Shown: positions 22,799 through 39,748 of the stretch, in pieces
Layout of the letters: every line of letters begins with the position of its first letter
How positions within the stretch are numbered: the first letter of the stretch is position 1
NCBI GenBank assembly: GCA_944391345.1
Contig: CALXTE010000011.1
Coordinates: forward strand, 1-57,862
Reading direction: 5' to 3'
DNA from: an uncultured Alphaproteobacteria bacterium
GTDB lineage: Bacteria > Pseudomonadota > Alphaproteobacteria > RF32 > CAG-239
DNA length: 57,862 nt
Made by a program: the position numbers and the translations under genes
Notes under the pieces: model-generated
What the model was told of the DNA's origin: nothing
Databases searched by the model: none
What the model saw: only the letters and a program-made list of their open reading frames with translations

Positions 22799-24403
22799 TT
22801 AAACTTTTATCGCTGAGGTCCCATCGTCTAGTGGCCTAGGACGCGGCCCTCTCAAGGCTGCAACACGAGTTCGAATCTCGTTGGGATCACCAATCGCAAC
22901 ACCCTCGATTTTCGGGGGTGTTTTTTTGTTTAAAGAACTTATGTAATCGAACGGTTTTCTAAGGTTATACGAGATTCTACGGTCTTGTAATTTCAAGTTC
23001 GAAAGTAAAAGGTGTAAAATCTCTCTTTTGGTTTCTACTTTCGAACTCTGAAAAATTTGATATGCGTTATTGCCTAAGGAAAGTATTGTAGATATTGCAA
23101 TTGAAAATTTTTCATCCGCTTTTGTTAACAGTTCTGATTTCCCTTCAAGTTCATATTGTTCTTTTTTTAGGTCTTCATTCATATCTCGGTATTCTTCCGG
23201 TGTAATATGTCCTTCAAGAAGCAAAGAGCGTAGACGTTTAATTTTATCCTGACAGTCATCATATTGTTTACGTACAGCCTTTACTTCACGATTATGGGCT
23301 TCATTTTGTTTGTTAATGATTCTTTCCATATCAGTTTTAAGATATCCCATAATTTCTTGGGGTAAGGACAAGTTTTTTAATTCATCTTCAATTTGTTGCA
23401 AAATTATATTCTCGTTGACCTGTGGATTTTTGCAATTTCCTTTGAAATGAGAACATTTTAAGTAAACATATTCTCGTCCACTGGGTTTTATTTTACGGTC
23501 ACTGCTAATCATACAACCACACTCTCCACAAGTTATTAATCCGCGAAAAATAAACGGTTTGTCGGTTGTTTTAAAATGTTTTGGTGTTTCAGGTTTGCGT
23601 CCGTGCATAATATCTTGACACGCGTTAAACAATGCAGGAGCTATTAAGGTTTCATAATTATGTTTATACCATTGGTCTTTATAGAACATTTCACCAATAT
23701 AAAATTTATTATTTAATATACGGTGTATAGTTGCAGTATCAAAAGGCTTTCCTGAAAAACGACTCACCAAACCCCATTCTTTGCACATTTTAGCCATATC
23801 TTTAACAGAATAAAGTCCCGTTGCATATCGTTCAAAGAGCTTTTGAATCAATGGAGCTCGTTCAGAGTCAATTATAACAGCCGCTTTTCCATCAGGATTT
23901 CTTATATTTAAATAACCTGCTGGAGCTTTTGTCATACATCGTCCTTGGTTAACAGAATAATCCATTCCATAAACAACATTATCTCGAAGACTTAAAGCAT
24001 AGTTTTGAGCCATAACAACATTTAATCCTAATATGGTTAAATCTCCGGCTTTAGAATCTTTATTAAGGACTAAATTTTCTTGAACCAAATGAAGTTCAAG
24101 TTGCCCAGATTTTCTCATTTCATCAATTAAGGTGTAATTTTTAAAGTTACGGAACAAACGGTCTGTCTTTAAGCAAACCAAGGCTATACCACCTCGCTGT
24201 TGTTTACAAAATTTTATCACTTCCATAAACTTTTTCCGCTCACCTTTTGTTGAACTTTCAACTAATTCAGCATCTTTAATAATAGTCAAATCTTTTCGTG
24301 AGCAATACTGTGTTAACATTTCCTGTTGATTTTGGAGAGAGTTTCCATCTTTTTCTTGCATTACCGTGGACACACGTCTTAATAAAACAGCATTTTTAAT
24401 CAT
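22799..24403 (-). CDS. Large serine recombinase (integrase)
   Basis: It catalyses site-specific integration and excision through a serine-DNA link. The 534 residues contain a resolvase-type catalytic domain (about 1-150; Ser12 in LRRVSTV), a recombinase domain (about 170-270), a zinc-ribbon with CGECGC and a later Cys pair (about 290-330), and a coiled coil (about 345-425). The final 40 codons are unusual: from about residue 494 they read through the tRNA-Glu terminator and the whole tRNA in antisense. That tail comes from the target site and the natural C-terminus in the free element is probably different. Start ATG 24403 follows a weak site. Confidence 0.93.
   Translation of the reverse strand: MIKNAVLLRRVSTVMQEKDGNSLQNQQEMLTQYCSRKDLTIIKDAELVESSTKGERKKFMEVIKFCKQQRGGIALVCLKTDRLFRNFKNYTLIDEMRKSGQLELHLVQENLVLNKDSKAGDLTILGLNVVMAQNYALSLRDNVVYGMDYSVNQGRCMTKAPAGYLNIRNPDGKAAVIIDSERAPLIQKLFERYATGLYSVKDMAKMCKEWGLVSRFSGKPFDTATIHRILNNKFYIGEMFYKDQWYKHNYETLIAPALFNACQDIMHGRKPETPKHFKTTDKPFIFRGLITCGECGCMISSDRKIKPSGREYVYLKCSHFKGNCKNPQVNENIILQQIEDELKNLSLPQEIMGYLKTDMERIINKQNEAHNREVKAVRKQYDDCQDKIKRLRSLLLEGHITPEEYRDMNEDLKKEQYELEGKSELLTKADEKFSIAISTILSLGNNAYQIFQSSKVETKREILHLLLSNLKLQDRRISYNLRKPFDYISSLNKKTPPKIEGVAIGDPNEIRTRVAALRGPRPRPLDDGTSAIKV
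22817..22892 (+). tRNA. tRNA-Glu (anticodon CTC)
   Basis: A 76-base cloverleaf with acceptor strands GGTCCCA and TGGGATC (one G-U pair), anticodon loop CTCTCAA giving CTC, T-arm ACGAG-TTCGAAT-CTCGT and encoded CCA. It is the probable integration site of the element to its right: the recombinase reading frame on the other strand runs right through it. Confidence 0.95.
22899..22927 (+). terminator. Terminator of tRNA-Glu
   Basis: ACACCCTCGA and TCGGGGGTGT form a stem with one G-U pair and are followed by seven T residues. The same bases are codons of the serine recombinase on the other strand. Confidence 0.8.
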
Positions 24404-32180: not shown

Positions 32181-33323
32181 TTATTTTTTTAACAGAAGTC
32201 TTATTAATTGCTGAGCTACGGCACGGACAACCGGAACAGCTACCGAATTTCCAAACTGTTTGTATGCTTGAGTGTCAGAAACAGGTATAATAAAATCTTC
32301 GGGAAAGCCTTGCAACCGTGCGCACTCCCTTGGGGTGAGCTTGCGAGGATTTTTATTGTCTTGTTCTATTAATATTTCACTACCATCTTTGTAGTATCTT
32401 GCGCTTATCGTATTTGTATATGGAGAATTTTCATTAAATAAAGAAAAGCCAAACCCATTACCTTTTGCTATATGTTCTTGTTTTCTTCGTAGATGACCTT
32501 GATATAGTTTATCGCTAATTGTATATTTTTCATCGACATCTTTTTCTAATATATCGCCTAATTTAGTTTTTTTATGAGTTGGTTTAGGATAGTTAAAAGA
32601 AAAAGGTAACTGAAAATGAAATATATCATTATTAAAACCAACGATATAAATTCGCTCTCTATTTTGTGGAACTCCAAAATCCGCAGCTCTTAAAACTTTG
32701 TAATCTACTGCATAATTCAAATCTTTCAGATGCTCTAATATCACTTTAAGTGTATTACCTTTATCGTGATTTTGAAGTTGTTTAACATTTTCTAGTAGAA
32801 AAGCCTTTGCTCTTTTAGTAGCTAGTATACGTTCTATATCAAAAAATAATGTCCCTCGCGTGTCTGCAAATCCTTTTTTTAATCCAGCTTGTGAAAAAGG
32901 TTGACATGGAAAACCAGCTAATAACACATCAAAATTAGGAATATTATGAGCATCTATTTTTGTAATATCACCAGAAGGAACTTCTCCAAAATTTACTCTA
33001 TAGGTTTTTTGTGCAAAATTATCCCATTCTGACGAAAACACACATTTTCCTCCTAATTCTTGAAAAGGAATTCTTATTCCTCCTATTCCTGCAAACAAAT
33101 CAATAAAGGTAAATGATGTTTTTTGATTATGATTTACAAATGGTGTCTTACTTGCAAATGTCATTATTGCATTATATTCAAGCTGAGAAGGAGTTGTTTC
33201 ATTTGCTTCCCATCTTCTGAGGGTTCTATCTCCATATTTTCCTAGACCAAGGGCATCTGCAAAATCTTTTTGAGTTAAGCCTAATGACAATCTTTTTTGT
33301 TTGATATCAGACGCGTATGACAT
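32181..33323 (-). CDS. DNA (cytosine-5) methyltransferase with N-terminal HTH
   Basis: The enzyme methylates cytosine C5 in its recognition site. The 380-residue protein starts with an XRE-type helix-turn-helix (about 5-55, GLTQKDFADALGLG), followed by FxGxG DLFAGIGG, catalytic GFPCQPFS, ENV (LLENVKQL), QNRERIY and the closing YKQFGNSVAVP. Methyltransferases with an N-terminal HTH, such as the M.SsoII and ScrFI A types, repress their own promoter and modify CCNGG or CCWGG sites. ATG 33323 has AAGGA 10 bases upstream; ATG 33332 is possible. It is divergent from the second methyltransferase, with 121 bases between them. Confidence 0.93.
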   Translation of the reverse strand: MSYASDIKQKRLSLGLTQKDFADALGLGKYGDRTLRRWEANETTPSQLEYNAIMTFASKTPFVNHNQKTSFTFIDLFAGIGGIRIPFQELGGKCVFSSEWDNFAQKTYRVNFGEVPSGDITKIDAHNIPNFDVLLAGFPCQPFSQAGLKKGFADTRGTLFFDIERILATKRAKAFLLENVKQLQNHDKGNTLKVILEHLKDLNYAVDYKVLRAADFGVPQNRERIYIVGFNNDIFHFQLPFSFNYPKPTHKKTKLGDILEKDVDEKYTISDKLYQGHLRRKQEHIAKGNGFGFSLFNENSPYTNTISARYYKDGSEILIEQDNKNPRKLTPRECARLQGFPEDFIIPVSDTQAYKQFGNSVAVPVVRAVAQQLIRLLLKK

Positions 33324-33444
33324 TTGTGACATTTCCTTACAAAATTGTCCTCTAATTAACACATTCTATTGTATAAGTCAAATAATGAATTTGATATTTC
33401 CACTCAGTAATGTTATCATACGTTGTTTTTTTAATGAGGGAAAA

Positions 33445-34587
33445 ATGTTAAAAGTTTTTGAGGCTTTTGCTGGATATGGTAGCCAAAGAATGGCTTTAAG
33501 AAATTTAGGTATTCCTTTTGAAGTTGTCGGAATATCCGAGATTGTAGAAGATGCTCTTTTGTCGTACGCTGCTATACACACTAACTTTTTGCAAATAAGA
33601 AATGAATATAATTTAATACCCAATCAAGACAAAGAAATGATGGTTAATTATCTTGAAAGTATTAATGTACCTCTCGACTATAAAACATTTAAGAATAGAG
33701 CAAGAAATCTTAAACCTGAAAAATTAAAAGATTTATATCTAGCCAATAAACTAATTAAAAATTACGGAGATATTACCAAAATAGATCCGTCAAAATTACC
33801 AGATTTTGACTTATTAACTTATTCTTTTCCTTGTCAAGATATTTCAGTTGCTGGCTACCAACACGGATTAAATAGCAACTCAGGAACTCGTTCATCTTTA
33901 CTATGGGAATGTTGCAAGATAATTGAGACTAAAAAACCAAAATTTTTAATGATGGAAAATGTTAAAAATTTAGTCGGATCTAATCATCGTCATAATTTTA
34001 CAAAATTTTTAACATATCTAGAAAAAGTTGGCTATAAAAATAGTTGGGCGGTTTTAAATGCTCGAGATTACGGAACCCCACAAAATAGAGAACGCGTATT
34101 TTGTATTAGTTCTCTTGATAAAAATTTTAATTATAAATTTCCTATTCCTGTTAAATTAAAATGTTCAATGAACGACTTTTTAGAAAAAGATGTATCTTCT
34201 TCTTATTATTTAAAGGATGAATTTACATTAGATAGCCCCATAACACAACAAGTCAGCTATTGTATTGATTCAAATTATTGGAAAGGTTCTAGTCTTGATA
34301 ATTTTTTGACCAAACATCGTCGTCAACTTGTAACTGGAAAAATAACTACTGATGGAAAATATAGAGTAAGAAGACTCACCCCGAATGAAACATGGCGCCT
34401 AATGGGGTGTTCTGATAGTGATTTTAAAAAAGCATCACAAGTTGTTAGTAATACAAGTTTGTATAAACAAGCTGGAAATAGTATTGTTGTGTCTGTTCTT
34501 GAAGCAATATTCAAAAACATGTTTATAACACAAGAAACGCCCAAACTTGATGAAACCAAAGAAGACTACCAATTCTCTTTATTTTAA
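33445..34587 (+). CDS. DNA (cytosine-5) methyltransferase
   Basis: The second cytosine-5 methyltransferase of the locus, 380 residues, without an HTH. It shows FEAFAGYGSQ (motif I), SFPCQDIS with the catalytic cysteine (motif IV), MMENVKNL (VI), PQNRERVF (VIII) and YKQAGNSIVV (X). The target recognition region lies at about 240-330. The ATG at 33445 follows GAGGG by four bases; longer in-frame starts have no site. The gene ends four bases inside the convergent endonuclease gene. Two methyltransferases with one endonuclease is the ScrFI arrangement. Confidence 0.93.
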   Translation: MLKVFEAFAGYGSQRMALRNLGIPFEVVGISEIVEDALLSYAAIHTNFLQIRNEYNLIPNQDKEMMVNYLESINVPLDYKTFKNRARNLKPEKLKDLYLANKLIKNYGDITKIDPSKLPDFDLLTYSFPCQDISVAGYQHGLNSNSGTRSSLLWECCKIIETKKPKFLMMENVKNLVGSNHRHNFTKFLTYLEKVGYKNSWAVLNARDYGTPQNRERVFCISSLDKNFNYKFPIPVKLKCSMNDFLEKDVSSSYYLKDEFTLDSPITQQVSYCIDSNYWKGSSLDNFLTKHRRQLVTGKITTDGKYRVRRLTPNETWRLMGCSDSDFKKASQVVSNTSLYKQAGNSIVVSVLEAIFKNMFITQETPKLDETKEDYQFSLF

Positions 34588-35390
34588 CTGAATGTCTCTT
34601 CAATTAAACTGTCCCAGAAAGAATTATTGGCCCTCCATTCTGAGTATGGACGTTTGTTTCCAACATACATGCCACTATCAAAAAAGACTATCCCTTGTTT
34701 TACTAAGGAAATCCATCTATCAAATGTTATTGGAGCTCCAAAACATATTTTACAATATTGACCATTTTCATCTGTTTTACAAGTAAACCAACCGTTTGAA
34801 TTGAATTTATCTTCTAATTTTTGTTTTAAAGATTTTCCTTTTAATCCCGATGGTAAAGACAAACCATACCATATTGCTAATGGTATGGTTTCTTTTTGCA
34901 ATAATTCCGGAATGATATCAGCTTTATTTTCTCTTAAATCGTTGCTATAGGAATACTCTGCAATTATATTGTTATCATCAGTAACAACTAAACGCTGACC
35001 AAAACGATTATATCCAGAAATTTTTGGACAAGGTTCTCCTGACCAAGAGTATCTACCTCCTTTAGCTTCATTTGGTTTTCCAAATATTTGAATAAATAAA
35101 TCTCTATTTTCTATTTTTGTTCTTTTATTAAAAACAGACCTATATTGAGGCATCGTATAGACATATTCATTTGCAGACCAATCACCAAAAGTCGTTTTTG
35201 AGGTCGTTTCGTTTTTCAATTCATATCCTAGTATATCTGCGGAATTATCTGCATTATGGTGAATATTAAATTGTGTTTCTAGCCAATGTCCTTTTCGACC
35301 ATCATGTCTAACATTCATTCCTTCTGTATTAGGGCTTTTACCTTTAACATTTTCTCTAAAAATTCGAATCAATTTATCTTTGTTAGACAT
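34584..35390 (-). CDS. Type II restriction endonuclease, LlaMI/MutH-like
   Basis: A 268-residue protein with the MutH/LlaMI-like segment GHWLETQFNIHHNADN followed by ADILGYELKN, which supplies the Asp and Glu-x-Lys of a PD-(D/E)xK active site (about 45-60). Related enzymes (LlaMI, ScrFI) cut CCNGG, so that is the expected target; this is inferred. The gene overlaps the convergent methyltransferase by four bases. AGGAG lies eight bases before the start. The enclosing locus has two methyltransferases and an ASCH gene. Confidence 0.8.
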   Translation of the reverse strand: MSNKDKLIRIFRENVKGKSPNTEGMNVRHDGRKGHWLETQFNIHHNADNSADILGYELKNETTSKTTFGDWSANEYVYTMPQYRSVFNKRTKIENRDLFIQIFGKPNEAKGGRYSWSGEPCPKISGYNRFGQRLVVTDDNNIIAEYSYSNDLRENKADIIPELLQKETIPLAIWYGLSLPSGLKGKSLKQKLEDKFNSNGWFTCKTDENGQYCKICFGAPITFDRWISLVKQGIVFFDSGMYVGNKRPYSEWRANNSFWDSLIEETFS

Positions 35391-35666
35391 TTTGATGCTC
35401 CTAAAAATTTTGATACACTAGAAGTTTACACCTAAATGTCTATTAAAAGCAAGTATTTGATAGATTTATACTATCTTATTTTCCTTCATTATCAATGTCA
35501 TCGCATTTATTTTGCGACGCGTTGTATGTAAATTGCGATTTGTGCGTTTTCCTTGTCAGCCAACGCGTATACGGTTGTTTTATGATAAATTTATCGTCAA
35601 AACTCAATTCATACACTTAAAACACAGGAAAACGAAGGGAAACAACAATTTTTTTTCAGAAGTATC
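35391..35666. other. Gene-free stretch upstream of the attenuator RNA
   Basis: No convincing gene lies in these 276 bases. Short inverted repeats are present: TCGCA/TGCGA near 35501-35517 and CGCGTTG (35518-35524) with CAACGCG (35561-35567). A 41-codon cysteine-rich ORF starting at about 35496 has no ribosome-binding site and is not accepted. Confidence 0.4.
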
Positions 35667-35694
35667 TTGACTCAGAGGCCAAATATGCTAGACT
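35667..35694 (+). promoter_or_regulatory. Promoter of the attenuator-like RNA
   Basis: TTGACT and TAGACT with a 16-base spacer and an extended -10 TGC. Confidence 0.6.
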
Positions 35695-35700
35695 TATAGA

Positions 35701-35813
35701 GCTTCAAGTCTTCTAATGAACTTACCCATGAAAATTGCAAGAGTTCAATTAGACTGAGTTCGTTGTATACCGAACTTAATCGTCCCAACAGGGAGATGGT
35801 TCGGTGTTTTTTT
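35701..35813 (+). ncRNA. Structured leader/attenuator-like RNA
   Basis: The first stem pairs 35708-35721 with 35743-35754, with a small bulge. AGTTCG (35757-35762) can pair with CGAACT (35771-35776). The second arm of that hairpin overlaps ACCGAAC (35769-35775), which pairs with GTTCGGT (35799-35805) as a terminator followed by seven T. An inner TCCC-AACA-GGGA hairpin lies between. The two folds exclude each other, as in an attenuator or riboswitch. It could also be a separate small RNA of about 113 nt. The gene at 35892 lies directly downstream. Confidence 0.55.
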
Positions 35814-35821
35814 ATTCCCAC

Positions 35822-35887
35822 TATTTCCTTTGAAGAGTCGATTGTTCGATATGAAAACAATGGTTTAACAATTGAGCAAAGGAAATA
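35822..35887 (+). promoter_or_regulatory. Hairpin hiding the ribosome-binding site of the gene at 35892
   Basis: TATTTCCTTTG (35822-35832) pairs perfectly over 11 bases with CAAAGGAAATA (35877-35887), which contains the AAAGGA site. Translation would be blocked when this stem forms. Confidence 0.55.
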
Positions 35888-35891
35888 TTAA

Positions 35892-36599
35892 ATGAATAAT
35901 TTACCAAAATATATTTCTACACATTTTTCCAATAATTGCTGTCAGAATGTTCCTATAACAACAAAACGAATAAAAGAGCTTTATCCTGATTTGAATAATT
36001 CCAAAATTTTTGATGAACTTTTAATATTGGAAAATTCAGGAATTATAGCCATAAAACAAGCAGCTAGAAGAAATAAGTGTTATAAGGAACGAGAAGATTG
36101 GCTAAGTAGAAAACATAAAATCACCCGATACCTAATTGATATATTACAACCCGAATTCTTTTGGCAACCTACTGTTTCAGAAACGGACTGGGCTATTAAG
36201 GCTAGTGTGGATATAGAAAAATGGGATTTTGTAATTCAACTTAATGGAATTGAAGAAAAGATCTGTGTCGACTTAAAACCAGCGAAAGGACATCAAAAAA
36301 CATTATTGATGAAATTTTGGGAGCAAGCCCAAAATAATGTAAATGAATGGTGCACATGTCAATTTGGCAATTCTTGCAGTTCTATTAATGCGTTTTTTAA
36401 TCGCTTTTGTAAAATGTTAAAACCTTTTTTTATAGAGGTTACAAAAAGAGGTGTGCGATTTACACCTGTTGTTTATCCTCAAGTCCTAAAAGCTAAGAAC
36501 ATTCAAGAATTGGTGTTTTTTGCAGACAAAGAGAATAGACTCCACTATAAATGTACATTTGATGAGAACGGTCAATTTATAAGGTGGATTAAGCTTTGA
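35892..36599 (+). CDS. Unknown protein, possible PD-(D/E)xK nuclease
   Basis: The 235-residue protein is not recognised. Its N-terminal 75 residues look like a winged helix (TTKRIKELYPDL, FDELLILENSGIIAIK). A following part has DFVIQLNGIEEKICVDLKPAKG (two runs: DFVIQLNG and KICVDLK), which gives an Asp-x13-Asp-x-Lys spacing as in the PD-(D/E)xK nuclease fold, and then a helix with EQAQNN. The nuclease idea is inferred from this pattern. The gene sits beside a restriction-modification locus, behind an attenuator-like RNA and an RBS-hiding hairpin, so its expression appears tightly held. Confidence 0.6.
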   Translation: MNNLPKYISTHFSNNCCQNVPITTKRIKELYPDLNNSKIFDELLILENSGIIAIKQAARRNKCYKEREDWLSRKHKITRYLIDILQPEFFWQPTVSETDWAIKASVDIEKWDFVIQLNGIEEKICVDLKPAKGHQKTLLMKFWEQAQNNVNEWCTCQFGNSCSSINAFFNRFCKMLKPFFIEVTKRGVRFTPVVYPQVLKAKNIQELVFFADKENRLHYKCTFDENGQFIRWIKL

Positions 36600-36622
36600 T
36601 AATCTCTATTATTTTCTAAAAA

Positions 36623-36684
36623 AACTTTGGCTAATTGGTAAGTTTCCATTGTGGCTTGATAATACTCTTTAGTTAGCCAAAGTT
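36623..36684 (+). repeat. 12-bp inverted repeat after the gene at 35892
   Basis: AACTTTGGCTAA (36623-36634) and TTAGCCAAAGTT (36673-36684) are perfectly complementary, with 38 bases between. No T run follows. Confidence 0.6.
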
Positions 36685-36712
36685 CGAAATTCATCGCGTT
36701 AGTATCACCATT
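36681..36712 (+). other. tRNA-Glu 3'-end-like sequence; candidate right attachment site
   Basis: AGTTCGAA is identical to 22868-22875 of tRNA-Glu. After five extra bases (ATTCA), 15 of 19 bases match the tRNA continuation and CCA end, including GTT-G-ATCACCA. It may be the right attachment half-site or a decayed tRNA fragment. Confidence 0.4.
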
Positions 36713-36750
36713 AAAAAAAGCGCCAAAACGGCGCTTTTTTTAATGGTGAT
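36704..36750. terminator. Perfect 21-bp palindrome with bidirectional terminator
   Basis: The 21 bases from 36704 and the 21 bases from 36730 are perfectly complementary around AAAAC. The inner part, A7-GCGCC and GGCGC-T7, forms a bidirectional terminator. The outer ATCACCATT/AATGGTGAT extends it. Confidence 0.7.
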
Positions 36751-36890
36751 GCGCCGACTTGTTAAACGTCAAGGCTTGCTACAGCAAGCCGAAAGCGGTG
36801 TTACAAGTCAAGTGCCCGAAGCGAAGTTGGCTTGCCTTATAAGGCAAGCCTTACGGAGCAAGACACCAATTCAGACGGCAGTCTTGACAA
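36751..36890. repeat. GC-richer, multiply hairpinned segment
   Basis: GACTTGT (36756-36762) pairs with ACAAGTC (36803-36809) and encloses GGCTTGC/GCAAGCC (36773-36779 with 36784-36790). GGCTTGCCTT/AAGGCAAGCC (36829-36838 with 36841-36850) and CAAGAC/GTCTTG (36859-36864 with 36881-36886) follow. Composition is clearly unlike the A/T-rich flanks. It could be a genome-wide intergenic repeat, an origin or a minus-strand RNA ending at the terminator at 36704. A 73-codon ORF across it is not accepted. Confidence 0.5.
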
Positions 36891-36964
36891 TGGTTGCTTT
36901 TTCTTTTATGAGTTGTACATTATTCAATTTTAAAATAGTTGTTATTAGTTTTAGTACAAAATAA

Positions 36965-37513
36965 ATGAATCGAAATCCAAAGTTAAAAAAATGCAATATG
37001 AAAATATGTCAGGGCTTTTGTTGTTATGATGGGGTTTATCTAAAACAAGGAGAGGAGGAAAAATTAAAAAATGTTATAAAAACTCATCCTCAAGATTTTC
37101 CTTTACCTGCAGAAGATTATTTTGATGACGGTAATTGGCACAATAAGGTTAAAGGACGAAAAACAGCTGTCAGGCCATTTCAATATTCTAATAATTTTCC
37201 AAAGCATTTTAATCAAACAAAGTGTATGTTTGCTGATGATAATGGTTTTTGTATTTTACAAAAAATTGCTTTGCGAGAGAAAATTCATCCTTGGAGCTAT
37301 AAGCCTTTTGCTTGCTGTTTATTTCCTCTCATTGAAAGAGATGGACAACTTATTCCTCCTCCTAATAAAGGTGAAAAAGATGACTATTTTATTGATGAAA
37401 CATATCCGGGGTTTGTTAATTGTCTTTATTGCGGTATAGACTGTAATGATGGTGAAAATTGGACTGATGTGTTGAAAGATGAAATTAATTTTTTTAAACA
37501 ATCAATGAAATGA
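36965..37513 (+). CDS. Cysteine-cluster protein (YkgJ/DUF3109-like)
   Basis: The 182-residue protein carries a dispersed cysteine set: CNMKICQGFCCYDGVYL (about 11-27), KCMF, FCILQK, FACCLFP and CLYCGIDC. This matches the zinc- or iron-binding YkgJ/DUF3109 families of unknown function. No signal peptide is present. It is A/T-rich like the element but lies beyond its probable right end. A terminator-like hairpin follows at 37621. The ribosome-binding site is weak. Confidence 0.7.
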   Translation: MNRNPKLKKCNMKICQGFCCYDGVYLKQGEEEKLKNVIKTHPQDFPLPAEDYFDDGNWHNKVKGRKTAVRPFQYSNNFPKHFNQTKCMFADDNGFCILQKIALREKIHPWSYKPFACCLFPLIERDGQLIPPPNKGEKDDYFIDETYPGFVNCLYCGIDCNDGENWTDVLKDEINFFKQSMK

Positions 37514-37620
37514 TTTTTTTTTATAAATAAAATACTCGTAAACCATAAGTAAATCATCACTAATTTAAGCAGCAGTCATGAAAAGGAGTGCCTTTTTTAT
37601 TGTGTGGAAATGATGGTTAT

Positions 37621-37654
37621 AAAAGCCTTACTGCAAAAATGCGGTAAGGCTTTT
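37621..37654. terminator. Bidirectional terminator
   Basis: AAAAGCCTTACTGCA and TGCGGTAAGGCTTTT form a 15-bp stem with one wobble around AAAA. It separates the convergent genes ending at 37513 and 37662. Confidence 0.75.
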
Positions 37655-37661
37655 ATATTGT

Positions 37662-37898
37662 TTAATCACCATGAAAATGTTTTCTAACGACATCAGAGAG
37701 CGAAATCGACAGATCCTTTTCTCTTTGTAAATCCCATTCTGCTTTTAGCTTAGCAAATTCTTTGACATAATCTTCTGTTTTGAGTCCGGAGGGAGATACT
37801 TGGGAACGTTGCAGTTCTAATTCTTCATCGAAGTATCCATGCCTTTCGGCCTCAAGTAAGGCATGTAAATTTAAATAATTTGTTCTTTTGGGTTTCAT
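37662..37898 (-). CDS. Hypothetical protein
   Basis: A 78-residue charged, mostly helical protein beginning KPKRTNYLNLHALLEAERHGYF and ending DVVRKHFHGD. It has no hydrophobic segment, and I recognise no family. It is followed by a terminator. The next gene upstream, a small membrane protein, lies 18 bases away on the same strand and may be co-transcribed. Confidence 0.55.
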   Translation of the reverse strand: MKPKRTNYLNLHALLEAERHGYFDEELELQRSQVSPSGLKTEDYVKEFAKLKAEWDLQREKDLSISLSDVVRKHFHGD

Positions 37899-37915
37899 AA
37901 TAATTATATTTTAGT

Positions 37916-38218
37916 TCATTTTGATGGGTGCTTGTTTGGTAGGGCGGCGCAAATTGTCGTGATTAGTATTATTCCAATAGCGACTAATGGAGGCCAAACC
38001 AAAGATACCGAACCCGTTAGATAACCAAGATGTATAATAAAAACTGCTAAAATTATGAAAAATATTGTTAAAAAGCGAAAGAATAATCCTTTTAATGGGG
38101 AAAAATCTTGGCTTTTTTTACATAGTTTTTGCAATTTATTATACTTAAAAAGTGTGTAAATGGATAGAAGTATTTCTATGCCAAAATAGATGCATAATAA
38201 TTCTTGTAACTGTTCCAT
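37916..38218 (-). CDS. Small membrane protein
   Basis: A 100-residue protein with three hydrophobic segments, at about 5-24, 45-65 and 72-92, joined by a basic loop (KYNKLQKLCKK) after the first. No family is recognised. By the positive-inside pattern the loop between segments one and two should be cytoplasmic. It is probably in one unit with the gene at 37662. Confidence 0.6.
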   Translation of the reverse strand: MEQLQELLCIYFGIEILLSIYTLFKYNKLQKLCKKSQDFSPLKGLFFRFLTIFFIILAVFIIHLGYLTGSVSLVWPPLVAIGIILITTICAALPNKHPSK

Positions 38219-38305
38219 AATAATTAAATTTATTTGTTAGACATAATTGTTATTTTTTAGGGCTTTATTATACAAAGATTTGTTAAAGAAGCAAGTTAAA
38301 TTATT

Positions 38306-38722
38306 TTATGGTTTGATTTGCAAAGCACGAAGGATGGCAATCATTCCTTCTGCCGCTGTATCACTCATAATTTTATATTGATTATTGAATGTGTAAAAAT
38401 TCATGAAACTTGCAGAAAAACTTTTTCCGGTTGCGGGCATCCCCATAAAATTTCTATCATGCGTTCCCGAACAGGTCCAATGGACAGCGACTTTGTTGCC
38501 TTCTGCAACCATTTCTTCCAGTTTCCATTGAACATTGGAAAAACTTTTTCTTAACCAAAAAACTAAAGATAAATATCCTTTGCCGCCATATACAGGTTCT
38601 GGAAAAGCCGGCGTATAAAAGGGGGCTTTGGAGTCAACAAGTTCATTAGCCATATTGACATCGGCCGTATTAATCATTGTTTCAAATTTTTTTATTTGTT
38701 TTTTTAAAATTTCTAAGTCCAT
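38306..38722 (-). CDS. SnoaL-like / ester-cyclase family protein
   Basis: The 138-residue protein matches the SnoaL-like (NTF2-fold) pattern: a helical N-terminus, GGKGYLSLVFWLRKSF, VAVHWTCSGTH, FMGMPATGKSFS and a closing FYTFNN..KI segment. Such proteins are small alpha+beta barrels with diverse or unknown activity. The ATG at 38722 is chosen because GGGGAT lies just upstream and homologous starts are close; longer in-frame starts run into A/T-rich noise. It follows the broken EamA gene on the same strand, 141 bases away. Confidence 0.75.
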   Translation of the reverse strand: MDLEILKKQIKKFETMINTADVNMANELVDSKAPFYTPAFPEPVYGGKGYLSLVFWLRKSFSNVQWKLEEMVAEGNKVAVHWTCSGTHDRNFMGMPATGKSFSASFMNFYTFNNQYKIMSDTAAEGMIAILRALQIKP

Positions 38723-38863
38723 ATTATCCCCAATTAATGAAAATATGCAATTTGAAAATAGTTTTGTTTTTATAAGGTTATCTTGTTTTTTTATATTATA
38801 GGCAATATTATTCAACAAGATATTTTTAATATTTATTGACATAGCGGGTTTTGAGCGGCGTGT

Positions 38864-39748
38864 TTATGATGTCGTTTGTCGATGTCCAAAAGAAACCATC
38901 ATTATTCCGCTTATTACAAATAGGCCACCCAAAATTTGGGAAGGATAAAATCGTTCGCCTAAAAAAAGAAAAGCTTCAATTCCACTGAAAAATGGCAATA
39001 AATAATAAATAATTCCGGTTTTTAAATTTCCGATTTTTGCCAAAGCATTGTTCCACATTAAATAAGCGCCAACGGAATTAAATATTCCGAGATAGGCTAA
39101 AATCAGCCAATCTTGCGTATTAAGCTTTGAAAATATATTTTCTCCTACTTCAATAAAGGCAATAGGGTATAAAAGAATGACGCCTACAAAAGCTGTTGCG
39201 GCCAGCATGGTTTGTTGATTGATTTCCGATGGGCGCTTTTTTTGTAATAATGAATAAATTGCAAAACAAAATGAATTAAAAAGCACAAATAAATCTCCGG
39301 GGGCAAAGTTAAAGTTAAGCAGTTTTGATATATTTCCTTGCGTTATAATAAAAATAACGCCACCTAAAGCGATTATAAAACCTATGATTTGCATTAAAGA
39401 AATATGTTCATGAAGAAAAATTAACGATAAGACTAATAAAAAAATGGGTCCGTTTAGGGCTAACAAACTCATATTAAAAGGATCTGCTGTGCGGGCCGCA
39501 AAATATATCATGGAATTTTGCAAAACGATGCCGGTTATGGCTAAGCCAAGCACTAATTTCCAATTTTTTAATAAAAGAAACCAATTTTTATGCAATCCAT
39601 GCCAGGCCAGTGGTATTAACACTAAAGAAGCAATAAACTAGCTGCCAAATGTTATTTCAAAAGGTTGTAATGTTTGTGAAAACTTGACTGCGATGACATA
39701 GTTGATGCTCCAAAGAAAAATAGAACCTAATGCAAAAATATATCCCAT
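38864..39748 (-). pseudogene. EamA/DMT-family transporter broken by an in-frame TAG
   Basis: The reading frame from ATG 39748, preceded by AAGGA, gives 36 residues typical of an EamA first helix (ALGSIFLWSINYVIA), then TAG at 39638-39640, and continues in frame without other damage to 38864. The downstream 252 residues hold about nine membrane segments and two EamA repeats; the second ends with a GERFYPSQILGG segment, then a final helix. The family exports metabolites or drugs. A single substitution would restore it. A TAG suppressor is unlikely, because TAG is used as an ordinary stop elsewhere (13703, 56743). Confidence 0.8.

Follow-up and report, generated by a model that had tools for sequence, protein, structure and literature searches.

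The DNA analysed here, which we refer to as the window, is a 57,862-nt stretch of an uncultured Alphaproteobacteria bacterium (assembly GCA_944391345.1, contig CALXTE010000011.1), whose genome comprises 1.63 Mb in 44 contigs. Positions 35667-36599 carry, on the plus strand and in this order, a promoter-like site (35667..35694; TTGACT-N16-TAGACT with a TG before the -10 element, nine out of 12 consensus matches), a structured RNA of about 115 nt (35700..35813; its start is inferred from the promoter and its end is the T run) that terminates in an intrinsic terminator, and a 235-codon gene (35892..36599), which we call effector 1. The series of promoter, terminated RNA and gene had been proposed from inspection of the letters alone (the original prediction), and it was confirmed. 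Comparison with related loci shows the same order of predicted parts (promoter-like site, structured RNA, intrinsic terminator, in most cases a hairpin hiding the start, and gene); it also shows that RNA unit and gene occur in varying combinations, and that a near-identical cassette is present in two genera. Neither the RNA nor the protein matches a family in the libraries searched, and yet they recur in different pairings. We give roughly even credence to the reading of the locus as a small mobile cassette: a short RNA unit would control an effector gene, which two locks would keep off until a trigger arrives.

The structured RNA and its hairpins

The predicted transcript (35692-35818) is more stable than its shuffled versions (z -4.55; 0 out of 200 were as stable), as are those of loci L006 (z -4.75) and L002 (z -5.06). 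Its minimum-energy fold contains a first hairpin (35699..35761, plus strand) and the terminator (35767..35813, plus strand; the stem spans 35767-35807 and is followed by the T run to 35813). The terminator hairpin has an energy of -20.8 kcal/mol. Among control strands between divergent genes, a hairpin of -12 kcal/mol or lower directly 5' of a T run was found in three out of 45 (the count was printed as four out of 46, but one of the four is a cassette copy in L069 and was removed). The energy-based scan detects the terminator in seven of the nine RNA-bearing cassettes and misses those of L008 and L009, in which the T run is interrupted; a terminator control with perfect stems missed the targets and was uninformative. 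The promoter evidence is weak by itself, as the scan gave 10 sites of this quality versus 7.0 expected; inspection by eye shows promoter-like sites in the corresponding position of related loci (for instance TTGACA..TATACTATAAT in L002).

The leader had been described as having two mutually exclusive hairpins, the second being the terminator. These two do not exclude each other, as both are present in one minimum-energy fold, but a third hairpin (TGAGTTCG-loop-CGAACTTA; 35755..35778, plus strand) overlaps each of them in the window RNA and would compete with the terminator. It was found by folding the RNA cut before the 3' arm of the terminator, and in such truncated-RNA folds it forms in both the window and L006 before that arm is made. 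Its core, GTTCGTTGTATACCGAACT, is identical in all four RNAs of the type found in the window (type A: window, L006, L064 and L065). The predicted overlap of first hairpin, alternative hairpin and terminator in the window is the geometry of a classical attenuator. In L006 and L064, however, the first hairpin is shrunk to a 6-bp hairpin (with one compensatory change between these two loci) that stops just 5' of the alternative hairpin, so the overlap is lost and this part of the switch is not conserved. Folds of the RNAs of L002, L010, L008 and L009 gave no comparable alternative hairpin.

Competition between hairpins in attenuators and the masking of ribosome-binding sites are known modes of control. 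The window RNA resembles such devices in its overlapping first hairpin, alternative hairpin and terminator and in the predicted masked start downstream, and differs from the classical ones in that the overlap is not kept in L006 and L064 and that there is no leader peptide under visible selection. Short open reading frames (ORFs) do overlap the RNA in the window (13 codons, 35716-35757), in L006 (31 codons, at 1380) and in L064 (22 codons, at 1494), and in the last two a GGAG lies upstream and the reading frame enters the terminator. A leader-peptide attenuator, in which translation of such an ORF would open or close the terminator, is nevertheless very improbable: all three differences between L006 and L064 within the ORF alter the amino acid and all three are in compensated base pairs; the ORF of the window diverges beyond its first codons, is not as long and lacks a Shine-Dalgarno sequence; and L002 has no ORF of at least eight codons starting in the RNA.

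No Rfam family was matched by the cassette RNA of the window at the gathering threshold or by the RNAs of five loci at E-values up to 1. Weak matches to RNAI, microRNA, snoRNA and sRNA families fall outside the cassette RNAs and were rejected.

RNA types and a probable exchange of parts

Of 153 genomes from the bacterial family, seven (counting that of the window) carry an effector-1 gene, and these belong to four of 16 genera; six copies are full length and that of G133 is cut at a contig end (a weak match with stops in G154 was taken as a remnant and excluded from the counts). The expectation of the original prediction that the RNA precedes homologues of the gene stood for six of the seven copies, the window included, which have the promoter-like site, RNA and terminator at their 5' side; the exception is G177 (L007). 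The RNAs before effector-1 genes belong to three dissimilar types: A (window and L006), B (L002 and L010) and C (L008 and L009).

A covariance model of the type-A RNA (R1; 62 positions, built from the window and L006 only) gave six matches at E-values of 0.01 or better in the 153 family genomes: the two source loci (84 and 82 bits), G016 and G104 (69 bits each), and two matches of 29-30 bits in G134 and G185, which we treated as chance (the first alone was inspected). All four matches above 60 bits sit 5' of effector genes. In 385 genomes of the class (a sample that includes the window and family members) R1 was found in G000 and G016 only. G016 and G104 do not encode effector 1: downstream of the promoter-like site, RNA, terminator and start hairpin they carry another, unlike ORF, 230 codons long (effector 2). 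Between these two cassettes, which belong to different genera and have different flanks, identity is 98.3% over 1036 bp; a 137-bp piece farther upstream is also shared at 92%, and lies about 3.8 kb away in G104. A distant relative of effector 2 (30%) is found in G146, with a terminator and start hairpin upstream and an RNA of a fourth sequence type (D). RNA and terminator thus precede three out of three effector-2 genes, and the arrangement is found in nine of the 10 loci of both gene families with four dissimilar RNA types.

That the gene is an ordinary one, with an RNA or terminator left upstream incidentally by rearrangement, is a highly improbable explanation. The locus without an RNA (L007) would fit it, and only 10 loci are known; against it stand the order common to nine loci despite the dissimilarity of the RNAs, the pair-preserving substitutions described below, and the position of all four strong R1 matches before such genes.

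Parts of the cassettes also appear to move separately. The DNA upstream of the window cassette (35445..35666, plus strand) is common to the window and to an effector-2 cassette of another genus (L068): blastn aligns window 35445-35836 with L068 6854-7195 (73.6% identity over 397 columns, E = 5e-59), and the likeness ends at 35836, 5' of the gene. In the RNA alignment, the sequence from L006 (effector 1) seems nearer to the one from L064 (effector 2) than to that of the window, which suggests an exchange of parts. What appears to be new here is that a single RNA type precedes two different genes and that one protein family lies behind three RNA types, together with the predicted start masking past a terminator and the pair-keeping substitutions between close RNAs. 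Among the papers listed by a literature search, none describes the cassette, with most subscription papers lying outside its coverage.

No relatives of the RNA core were found in viral contigs, phages or plasmids. Stand-alone type-B and type-C RNAs were sought in 137 genomes each, and beyond the cassettes only stretches of 19-40 bases were matched; 13 of these were inspected and taken as unrelated (G133 and G151 were absent from the type-B draw or unmatched).

The strength of RNA conservation differs among the types. Between L008 and L009, 140 out of 147 RNA columns are identical, against 560/777 for the gene, 155/248 for the protein, 191/279 for the upstream flank and 143/222 for the downstream flank. 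Between the window and L006, 51/63 columns are identical in the 3' part of the RNA, 21/59 in its 5' part and 514/777 in the gene. The signal of RNA conserved over gene is, on these alignments, strong only in type C (global identity figures are inflated by free gapping, with shuffled sequences reaching 0.73-0.74, and were not used).

Covariation had been named as a check in the original prediction. Among three close pairs of RNAs (with seven, five and five substitutions) no predicted base pair is broken; there are two, one and zero compensatory pairs, and zero, zero and two changes on one side only by which pairing is preserved. When the substitutions are placed at random, an equally good outcome has P = 0.009, 0.033 and 0.033 (the structures were computed on the compared pairs, a favourable bias, but the stems concerned are also present in single-sequence folds). 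The type-A alignment as a whole gave no such signal, as discussed in the next section.

The predicted masked start and the proposed control

In the leader between terminator and start codon, a hairpin (35822..35887, plus strand; arms TATTTCCTTTG and CAAAGGAAATA) is predicted to mask the Shine-Dalgarno sequence of the window gene. The predicted unpaired fraction of the Shine-Dalgarno sequence is at most 0.13 in the window, L006, L064, L065 and L072, and in L008 and L009 the start codon lies inside a predicted stem. Masking of either the ribosome-binding site or the start codon is predicted for seven of the nine RNA-bearing loci, versus four out of 92 control genes from the regions compared; the distinct masked cases are the window, L006, L064/L065, L072 and L008/L009, and the unmasked one is L002/L010. 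In L008 (1422-1495), a segment after the terminator (1453-1466) could pair with the 3' arm of the terminator (14 nt, 86%) or, alternatively, with the region of the start (11 nt, 100%).

This layout is read most economically as an expression device that is locked twice, by the terminator and by the masked start. Most transcripts would end at the terminator and yield the short RNA alone, and the rare read-through transcripts would be poorly translated with their start masked. Because read-through would be rare and the start hidden, the protein would stay nearly absent until an event lifts both locks; possible triggers are the takeover of transcription by a phage, loss of the RNA and the binding of a factor to it. 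With less certainty, the protein, with its two winged-helix-like domains, may act on nucleic acid, and the cassette may serve defence or maintenance of an element, as its neighbourhood suggests. Since the same device stands before two dissimilar genes, a control unit that acts in cis is favoured, and the occurrence of one gene family with three dissimilar RNAs hints at a sensor part of the RNA that varies among cassettes. The RNA may also act in trans, by analogy with type III toxin-antitoxin systems.

Several observations weigh against the two-lock reading. The type-B loci L002 and L010 show neither a masked Shine-Dalgarno sequence nor a masked start codon, and when the complete read-through RNA of L064 is folded, its Shine-Dalgarno sequence is predicted to be 0.61 unpaired. 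The masking thresholds were chosen after the targets had been seen, several of the nine loci are near copies and the control leaders were fixed at 55 bases; in an earlier control with a fixed 75-base leader, the access of the Shine-Dalgarno sequence was not significant (P = 0.079) and the folding energy was (P = 0.0002), with the leader cutting through the terminator in several targets. G177 has the gene, and there the terminator scan was negative and no RNA was seen by eye. No single antiterminator is common to the RNA types, the type-C RNAs are only moderately beyond shuffles (z -1.76 and -1.98), and the RNAs of L002 and L010 (149/155 identical) show no excess of conservation over the gene fragment (139/145). 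Pair counts in the type-A alignment (A11) are not above those of shuffles (it has four distinct rows, one of them a weak reverse-strand match). As for a role in defence, methyltransferases are common genes, and the count of defence neighbours given below has no background control.

More tentatively, and with some doubt on our part, the loci may represent a new, modular class of immune or maintenance cassettes, in which RNA units of at least four sequence types and effectors of at least two kinds are both interchangeable and are paired by recombination; most units would have a masked start past the terminator, and the RNA would be the sensor that determines when the effector is produced. If the RNA is the sensor of the trigger, a shared RNA type should answer the same event whatever gene follows. 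The layout would also provide a search rule that is independent of protein homology: a short terminated RNA and a masked start 5' of an orphan gene.

The proteins, known systems and the neighbourhood

The window protein has no match in Pfam, PADLOC or NCBIfam at E-values up to 1, and its PHROG match is at chance level only; the proteins of L006, L008, L064 and L072 have no PADLOC match at an E-value of 0.01. The other five full-length effector-1 proteins, including those of other genera, are 40-59% identical to it. No effector-1 gene was found outside the family in the 385 class genomes or in 234 genomes of the phylum (which also include the window), and no relatives were found in viral contigs, phages or plasmids. 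A scan of genome contigs gave two loci, which correspond to the G031 copy and to the truncated one of G133.

The original prediction had suggested a nuclease of the PD-(D/E)xK type on the basis of an Asp-x13-Asp-x-Lys pattern; neither the spacing nor the assignment survived. The nearest pair, Asp112 and Asp127, is separated by 14 residues, and both are kept only in L006 among five relatives: in the other four, the position of Asp112 is occupied by Asn, Asn, Lys and Ile, and that of Asp127 (two residues before Lys129) by Pro, Asn, Asn and Lys. Lys129 is invariant across the six aligned effector-1 sequences, as is Asp107. D...(D/E)-x-K is not conserved (Asp-x-Lys is found in one of the five relatives), and the nuclease assignment was rejected on this ground. 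The AlphaFold2 model (pLDDT, predicted local distance difference test, 81.8) has two winged-helix-like domains, and strands are predicted at the C-terminus. Fold matches of residues 1-94 include CodY, RepA WH1 and RctB, and those of residues 102-195 include OmpR/PhoB-type domains (no Foldseek match reached an E-value of 0.001 or better); a family missing among such matches is not thereby excluded.

Effector 1 and effector 2 share no significant similarity: hhalign gave E-values of 0.078 and 0.051, and comparison of their hidden Markov models against shuffles, taking the best among 10 pairings, gave 36 out of 3000, which is not significant. The structure model of effector 2 is unusable (pLDDT 39.7), although in this protein strands and helices follow each other much as in the second domain of effector 1. 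A search of viral contigs gave no relative of effector 2. A 3' flanking stretch with CGTACCGCCA at its end (L064 2301-2368 and L072 901-992) is common to distant copies of effector 2; it lies near the point at which the likeness between the cassettes of G016 and G104 stops.

The order of predicted domains is also like that of proteins of the CodY, RepA WH1 and OmpR/PhoB type. Effector 1 might also be a DNA-binding or replication-initiator-like protein that regulates itself and belongs to a mobile element, with dosage control by the RNA as in plasmid copy control and with the neighbouring genes as island cargo. This is quite unlikely, although it would accommodate both the domains with their fold matches (CodY, RepA WH1, RctB and OmpR/PhoB type) and the presence of the cassette in two genera. 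A palindrome 5' of the promoter, a possible operator, would fit as well (35578..35601; TTTTATGATAAATTTATCGTCAAA, also given as TTTTATGATAAATTTATCATAAAA; 24 bp with two mismatched pairs); a palindrome scan found it in two of seven loci, imperfect in the window and as a perfect 24 bp in L065 (reverse strand). No plasmid Rep family signature was matched by the window protein in Pfam at E-values up to 1.

Two known systems are closer in layout. As described in PMC12373285, ToxIN consists of a non-coding RNA, an intrinsic terminator and then a protein gene, co-transcribed, and AbiF has the RCd22 RNA (Rfam RF03085), of 132 nt and with a terminator, 5' of the effector gene on the same transcript. The cassette shares the order of RNA, terminator and gene with ToxIN, here taken for the type III toxin-antitoxin systems (ToxIN, CptIN, TenpIN; AvcID), and shares with AbiF a terminated RNA 5' of an effector gene on one transcript. 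Unlike the type III systems, however, its RNA has no tandem repeats (no direct repeat of at least 9 nt in the window or L006, and one widely spaced pair of 10-15 nt each in L002 and L008), its protein matches no ToxN/AbiQ, CptN or TenpN family in Pfam or PADLOC, its start is predicted to be masked, and its RNA type is common to two different proteins. It differs from AbiF in lacking an RF03085 match (five loci, E-values up to 1), an Abi_2 domain and the invariant HEPN histidine (none of the histidines is invariant among the six aligned effector-1 sequences). By the tested features, the cassette is not ToxIN, AbiF or PD-(D/E)xK, and resembles an RNA-controlled effector cassette, as had been proposed.

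The analogy with these systems suggests that the short RNA might be an antitoxin of type III or AbiF-like kind, which binds and inhibits a toxic protein until phage shutdown of transcription frees it; the terminator would then serve to put the RNA in excess over the mRNA. We consider this unlikely, with evidence on both sides. The gene order described in PMC12373285, the better conservation of RNA than protein in L008/L009, the strong structure of the type A and B RNAs, and the scattered presence (seven of the 153 family genomes) with defence neighbours agree with it. It is at odds with the absence of tandem repeats and of toxin-family and Rfam matches; moreover, one RNA type paired with two proteins without significant similarity would be odd if the RNA had to bind the protein, and a masked start would be superfluous.

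A gene beside or near the cassette matches a PADLOC model in six out of eight loci examined (a count without background control), so that the neighbours are often defence genes: a LlaMI-type restriction enzyme in the window; a type III methyltransferase, a type I restriction enzyme and SoFic in G031; PD-Lambda-5 A and B in G151; PDC-M38A and PD-Lambda-5_A in G117; PDC-S01 in G116; and a type III methyltransferase in G016. For G177 and G133, a single neighbour was examined each, with no PADLOC match.

In the window, the restriction system that had been noticed beside the cassette does adjoin it: it consists of the LlaMI-type endonuclease (34584..35390, minus strand; PADLOC and Pfam), which lies outside the cassette, and two C5 cytosine methyltransferases (32181-33362, minus strand, and 33301-34587, plus strand). 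Restriction system and cassette lie in a low-GC stretch, at the edge of which a large serine recombinase ORF (22799-24403) overlaps a tRNA-Glu gene (22817-22892), and this stretch is probably an integrated island. No pair of attachment (att) sites was found for it, and a scan for 13-base repeats around the tRNA-Glu gene returned AT-rich matches only. Dispersed repeats are present on the right-hand side: one such element lies at 36700-36910, and part of the region 36600-39700 is matched in nine out of 12 genomes of the genus, its own genome included.
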